A stretch of 9,556 bases of DNA from a bacterium. Lineage in GTDB: Bacteria; JAMCPX01. The translations under genes and the position numbers were made by a program. Shown one piece after another: positions 2,222 to 2,873 of this stretch (the first letter of the stretch is position 1; every line of letters begins with the position of its first letter). The stretch covers positions 1 through 9,556 of the forward strand of contig JAJYJX010000097.1 in NCBI GenBank assembly GCA_021789095.1, written 5' to 3'. The notes under the pieces are model-generated. The model was not told where the DNA came from. It did no database searches and saw nothing but the letters and a program-made list of their open reading frames with translations.

Positions 2222-2249
2222 AATAAAGCAACCGATGTTCTCACGGGTA

Positions 2250-2255
2250 TAAGGA
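2250..2255 (+). promoter_or_regulatory. Ribosome-binding site for rnhB (supports ATT start)
   Basis: TAAGGA, identical to the scpA site, lies 6 nt before ATT at 2262. The TAA here is also the last in-frame stop before rnhB, so translation of this frame must begin after it. The only classic start codons in the frame between this stop and the catalytic motif would be ATG, GTG or TTG, and none is present. Confidence 0.6.
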
Positions 2256-2261
2256 TTACAA

Positions 2262-2873
2262 ATTAAAGACTTTATAAAAAATAAACTCTACTCCCGCATA
2301 GCGGGCATAGACGAGGTCGGACGCGGCCCTCTTGCAGGCCCTGTTGTAGCGTGCGCAATCGTCATACCTGACGGCATCAAATGCAGGTTGATAAAGGACT
2401 CCAAACTACTGACGCCGGTGGCAAGAATCAAGGCTTATGAATACCTTAAAAAATACGCACTATCCTTCGGCATAGGCATTGTAGATGAGCAGACCATTGA
2501 CAGGATCAACATAAGGAATGCGACAATGCGTGCAATGGAACAGGCATTATCAATGTTAAACCACATGGTCGAGATTGTATTGATTGACGGCAACATGAAG
2601 ATCAACACAGACCTGCCGCAGGAAACCATCGTTGACGGCGATAAAATCCATCTGAGCATTGCTTCCGCATCCATCGTAGCAAAGGTTTACAGGGACAGCA
2701 TTATGGAAAGGTATGCAAAAATATATCCATGGTATGGATTCGACAAGAACAAGGGCTACGGCACCAAACAGCATCTTGACGCACTTAAAAAGTACGGTCC
2801 CTCCCCTATCCACAGGAGATCATTCCTGAAAAAATTGTTCAGCGGCCAGCTCGACCTGCCGATGGATATGTAA
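2262..2873 (+). CDS. rnhB: Ribonuclease HII, probable ATT start codon
   Basis: RNase HII nicks the RNA strand of RNA-DNA hybrids and at single ribonucleotides embedded in DNA. Read from ATT at 2262 it is 203 aa, normal for the family. The catalytic acids match the E. coli pattern (D16, E17, D108, D126): D17 and E18 in GIDEVGRGPLAGPVV, D109 in VLIDGN, D127 in VDGDK. The ASASIVAKVYRD segment, the GYGT motif and IHRRSF near the C-terminus are also typical. In-frame codons from the stop at 2250 to 2303 include no ATG, GTG or TTG; ATT follows TAAGGA by 6 nt and would give a typical M-K-D-F-like N-terminus. The first classic start in frame, TTG at 2388, would remove D17 and E18. An in-frame ATG at 2235 is cut off by the stop at 2250. 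Gene identity is firm; the exact start is inference. It is convergent with the next gene, whose stop lies 14 nt away. Confidence 0.88.
   Translation: MKDFIKNKLYSRIAGIDEVGRGPLAGPVVACAIVIPDGIKCRLIKDSKLLTPVARIKAYEYLKKYALSFGIGIVDEQTIDRINIRNATMRAMEQALSMLNHMVEIVLIDGNMKINTDLPQETIVDGDKIHLSIASASIVAKVYRDSIMERYAKIYPWYGFDKNKGYGTKQHLDALKKYGPSPIHRRSFLKKLFSGQLDLPMDM

Follow-up and report, generated by a model that had tools for sequence, protein, structure and literature searches.

IF3 discriminates against start codons of the AUU type. Near-cognate initiation has been described for infC, which starts at AUU in E. coli and at ATC in Streptomyces (PMC5472188), and at AUA in S. aureus (PMC13009471). In S. aureus, the AUU start of cvfC1 reaches roughly 10% of AUG activity (PMC13009471). 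Switches from AUG to AUU are extremely rare, with one case among 61,358 reconstructed AUG starts (PMC5622118). Here, we analyzed a gene for ribonuclease HII (rnhB) that appears to start at ATT; a literature search for an RNase HII with an ATT start found none.

The window, that is, the whole 9,556-nt stretch of DNA, carries genes for an M50 peptidase, scpA, scpB and an RNase HII frame in this order on the + strand. The intact rnhB frame covers 2253-2873 and opens after a TAA at 2250-2252. A preliminary description of this DNA had found no ATG, GTG or TTG in the frame between this stop and the DEVGRG motif at 2310, and the sequence bears this out. Across all frames of 2222-2309, the sole such codon is ATG 2235, which lies in the rnhB frame and is stopped by TAA 2250; a further ATG of the frame, located in the last bases of a repeat (2217), meets the same TAA. 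Together with the stop, either ATG would define a putative short leader frame (2217-2252, +) that ends at the Shine-Dalgarno sequence, with a 4-nt Shine-Dalgarno match before ATG 2235. A frameshift from another frame was ruled out, as the other two frames have no canonical start within 2222-2309.

The positions given earlier for the TAA (2250-2252), the hexamer TAAGGA (2250-2255), the ATT (2262-2264), DEVGRG (2310-2327) and the TTG (2388) all hold. So do the consequences drawn from them: initiation at ATT 2262 yields a 203-aa protein keeping every catalytic acid, and a start at TTG 2388 would cost the enzyme its catalytic D and E. Between TAAGGA and ATT lies a 6-nt spacer, TTACAA. At scpA, as had also been described, TAAGGA at 734 precedes the ATG at 745 with a 5-nt gap. 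The starts of scpA (734-747) and rnhB (2250-2264) thereby share a layout in which a TAA stop sits within TAAGGA and the start follows close behind. This resembles translational coupling; at rnhB, the stop closes just a short leader frame.

By profile and catalytic acids, the predicted product of rnhB (2262-2873, +; 203 aa from ATT) belongs to RNase HII. It matches PF01351 with 131.3 bits (cut-off 25.8, E 5.6e-38) and NCBIfam NF000594 with 254.6 bits (cut-off 243). The translation contains GIDEVGRG, VLIDGN and KVYRDS and thus all four catalytic acids (DE of DExGRG, D of LIDG and D of YRD); matching residues were also found in the intact family relatives. Differences from these relatives are dominated by third positions, with about 0.2, 0.12 and 0.55 per site at codon positions 1, 2 and 3, and are similar among the relatives themselves. 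Identity to the orthologue in G002, a relative from another genus, is 77%, which corresponds to the 66th percentile of 210 genes. The gene thus evolves normally, and codon-position divergence together with this normal identity ruled out an old pseudogene.

We then compared the rnhB starts of eight family relatives (G001-G008), counting positions in codons before DEVGRG. All eight have a canonical start (ATG, n=7; TTG, n=1), located 9-15 codons before the motif. ATG stands at -13 in G001, G007 and G008 as well as in G005, whose frame is broken further on by a one-base shift, at -13 or -15 in G004, at -15 in G002, where two TTG lie just upstream, and at -9 in G003, which also has a GTG at -18; G006 starts with TTG at -14. 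The shift in G005 (L034, 6001-6595) occurs near codon 45 and represents either an error or a pseudogene. Counted in the same way, the ATT of the window is at -16 and an ATA is at -12.

Since FIKNKLYS of the window aligns with MIKYNFYS of G008, the common ATG column at -13, where the start stands in most relatives, reads TTT in the window (2271-2273, +). The ATT is therefore neither a conserved start nor the relatives' ATG with one base altered. The preliminary description had proposed looking in relatives for ATT, or an ATG in the same column, after TAAGGA. This expectation was disappointed: the relatives instead use ATG or TTG at -9, -13, -14 or -15 behind differing leaders, and none of them shares the ATT start. 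Extending the comparison to 33 rnhB loci from the family and from distant bacteria, some of them duplicated between collections, the window was the sole locus without a canonical start before DExGRG. On these alignments, the rnhB start has moved in this lineage.

The relatives also bear on how long the N-terminus should be. A longer conserved N-terminus reading through 2250, named earlier as an observation that would speak against ATT, is absent: the relatives carry 9-15 residues before DEVGRG, so that a start near -16 fits, and neither TTG 2388 nor a 25-31-residue extension does. This makes it very unlikely that translation begins at ATG 2235 (or 2217), with TAA 2250 being an error or read through. 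The two in-frame ATGs are what recommends such a start; however, its product would be 9-15 residues longer than that from ATT, the Shine-Dalgarno match before ATG 2235 is weak, and both ATGs adjoin or sit in the repeat rather than in conserved sequence.

To choose between the non-canonical codons, we took the anti-Shine-Dalgarno sequence from the 16S 3' end of two family members, no 16S having turned up in the window's own genome; this end reads GGATCACCTCCTTTCT or nearly so. Accordingly, the Shine-Dalgarno match before ATT is AAGGA (2251-2255, +). The earlier proposal of TAAGGA as the ribosome-binding hexamer is thus right about the site and one base too long, the match covering 5 nt rather than 6. 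AAGGA and ATT have an aligned spacing of 1. No other spacing occurs as often in the 162 genes whose ATG starts align between the two genomes. A Shine-Dalgarno match of at least 5 nt precedes about half of these aligned-start genes, compared to a match at an acceptable distance in roughly 10% of AT-rich 15-mers. Because about one in ten comparable 15-mers matches as well, the Shine-Dalgarno sequence is supportive, not decisive. Sequestration of this site by pairing (UAUAAGG/CUUUAUA) was ruled out by its weak fold of just -1.8 kcal/mol, which 25 of 200 shuffled sequences equaled.

The runner-up is the ATA at 2274-2276 (+). Being next to the ancestral -13 column, it is the position nearest to the relatives' start, and infC uses ATA across the family. 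Nonetheless, it is preceded by AAAG alone, a 4-nt match at a spacing seldom used in this genome, and initiation there appears improbable to us. With no canonical start in frame, a Shine-Dalgarno sequence at the commonest spacing and short N-termini in the relatives, ATT 2262 is the best initiation candidate, and the preliminary description was probably right to prefer it, although the statistical weight behind it is moderate.

The region ahead of the gene differs as well. While scpB (1537-2139, +; PF04079, 7.6e-53) lies directly upstream of rnhB and the two are separated by roughly 15-40 nt in G006 and G007, the window carries a 62-bp dispersed palindromic repeat between them (CGTCATTCCTGCGAAAGCAGGAATCCAG ... 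CTGGATTCCCGTTTACACGGGAATGACA; 2160-2221), identified by copy count and fold. Its left arm occurs in at least 23 copies in the genome when up to 3 mismatches are allowed, versus 0 for a reversed control. The repeat (YGTCATTCCYGCGAAAGCRGGAATCCAG ... GGAATGACA) is found at 2160-2221 and at least 22 other genome sites (L041-L063). A T7C10 homopolymer run at 2143-2159, whose length may be unreliable, stands right before it. One repeat copy is directly followed by the beginning of an open reading frame with a GIY-YIG domain (PF01541, 3.2e-9; L055 about 1537, - strand; G000:C59 near 6000), and another GGAATGACA end is located just upstream of this frame; a link between nuclease and repeat is possible.

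At the same junction, G003 has a similar palindrome (L009) and G001 another inserted sequence. The scpB-rnhB junction thus seems to have been rebuilt repeatedly, and it is plausible that this remodelling displaced the rnhB start. The repeat folds strongly and includes a terminator-like stem at 2164-2183 followed by T; a search for a sigma-70-like promoter between scpB and rnhB found none. A leader remodelled in this way could also mean that rnhB recently lost its start codon and is silent or nearly so, with RNase HI doing part of the work. The same genome encodes an RNase H domain protein (PF00075, E 4.4e-13), so the cell might survive a loss of RNase HII expression. We nevertheless consider a silent gene unlikely, because the frame has stayed intact over about 200 codons, is conserved like other genes and still has a good Shine-Dalgarno sequence.

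To see how rare such a start is, we surveyed part of this assembly against a large part of G002, covering 210 orthologue-supported genes. Similarity ahead of the first canonical start flagged 17 frames, which we sorted by eye. Only two of the 210 genes truly lack a canonical start, namely infC and rnhB. In the other 15 flagged frames, the similarity came from conserved overlap with the gene ahead, after which both genomes have the same canonical start, from short chance resemblance, or from fragments of broken genes, for instance a transposase. In G002, a frame with VVGGAPRELLLHR (L140, 4456-5833, +), which by eye resembles a nucleotidyltransferase, lacks a canonical start within its first 63 codons; just upstream there is an ATG in another frame, which probably points to a one-base shift.

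infC served as a control. Its start is ATA, preceded by a purine-rich Shine-Dalgarno sequence, in each of the seven family genomes in which the gene was readable, that of the window included, so this family tolerates a non-canonical start. Such conservation matches the pattern known for infC elsewhere, a start against which IF3 discriminates. In the window's genome, infC is found at G000:C128, about 2560, + strand (L071, L108), and gene callers would truncate it.

The survey also informs the question of whether the base itself is real. The organism may have ATG at 2262, and the T at 2264 may stem from a mistake in sequencing or assembly, or from a minor strain variant. ATG and ATT are one base apart, and our only source is one assembly that is fragmented into 203 contigs and 92% complete. 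True AUG-to-AUU switches being so rare (PMC5622118), an error or variant is a serious competitor. Against it, the 208 other surveyed genes show no such artefact, which indicates that base errors destroying starts are not common in this assembly. A scan of related-locus contigs for sequence from the same species returned other family members and distant bacteria only. Weighing these points, we regard an altered base as a minority possibility of appreciable size.

For a functional RNase HII gene translated from a genuine ATT codon at 2262, we put the chances at about even. Counting against it are the absence of ATT from every relative, the rarity of the switch (PMC5622118), the share of AT-rich 15-mers with an equally good Shine-Dalgarno match, and the reliance on one assembly. 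If ATT is the start, AAGGA 6 nt upstream would position the 30S subunit on a leader that is A/T-rich and weakly structured. The initiator tRNA would read AUU inefficiently, resulting in a low level of the 203-residue enzyme. The ancestral ATG, located three codons downstream in most relatives, would have been lost after the split from the other genera, and this loss may have coincided with remodelling of the scpB-rnhB region where the palindromic repeat now sits. The full scenario, in which a genuine AUU arose as the ATG was lost while the junction took new shape around a mobile palindromic repeat, and now sets RNase HII synthesis, possibly under IF3 regulation, seems decidedly unlikely.

Taken together, the rnhB ATT seems to be a peculiarity of one lineage, or else an error at one base, and not a conserved switch. 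It is a fresh instance of a known phenomenon that brings no new mechanism. If the base is real, rnhB joins the natural genes other than infC that start at AUU, and it illustrates how a start codon can turn over within one lineage. In practical terms, gene callers would shorten an ATT-started rnhB into a seemingly dead enzyme.

With respect to other bacterial RNase HII genes (RnhB, PF01351, NF000594), the start codon is the sole difference we observed; sequence, catalytic acids and the scpB neighbor found in relatives are alike. Among near-cognate starts, infC (AUU in E. coli, AUA in S. aureus and in this family) is similar in combining a near-cognate AUN codon and a Shine-Dalgarno sequence with the lack of an in-frame canonical start. 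In rnhB, likewise, no compatible canonical start is in frame and the Shine-Dalgarno sequence has normal spacing; the codon, however, is found in one genome only and is not known to be linked to IF3, whereas the infC start is conserved and, in E. coli, takes part in the autoregulation of IF3.

The earlier suggestion that an infC-like autoregulation limits RNase HII synthesis consequently found no support, since rnhB lacks the conservation that infC displays in the same genomes. The mechanism as such is known for infC and, with GTC, for sigR (PMC5472188), but documented regulatory near-cognate starts are conserved (infC here; ccpN and cvfC1, PMC13009471). As the ATT is not, there is no case for a regulatory device, and deliberate IF3-dependent control of RNase HII through AUU is hardly credible.

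Closer in kind are the AUU start of cvfC1 and the AUA starts of ccpN and citZ in S. aureus, non-canonical AUN starts in genes unrelated to IF3 (PMC13009471), and the AUA of citZ is confined to one strain lineage (PMC13009471), as the rnhB ATT may be. These S. aureus starts have extended Shine-Dalgarno sequences and were established by ribosome profiling and reporters (PMC13009471); the proposed rnhB start has a 5-nt match. Finally, the GTC start of Streptomyces sigR was, like that of rnhB, overlooked by annotation pipelines (PMC5472188), but in contrast to the rnhB ATT it is conserved, IF3-repressed and regulatory (PMC5472188).
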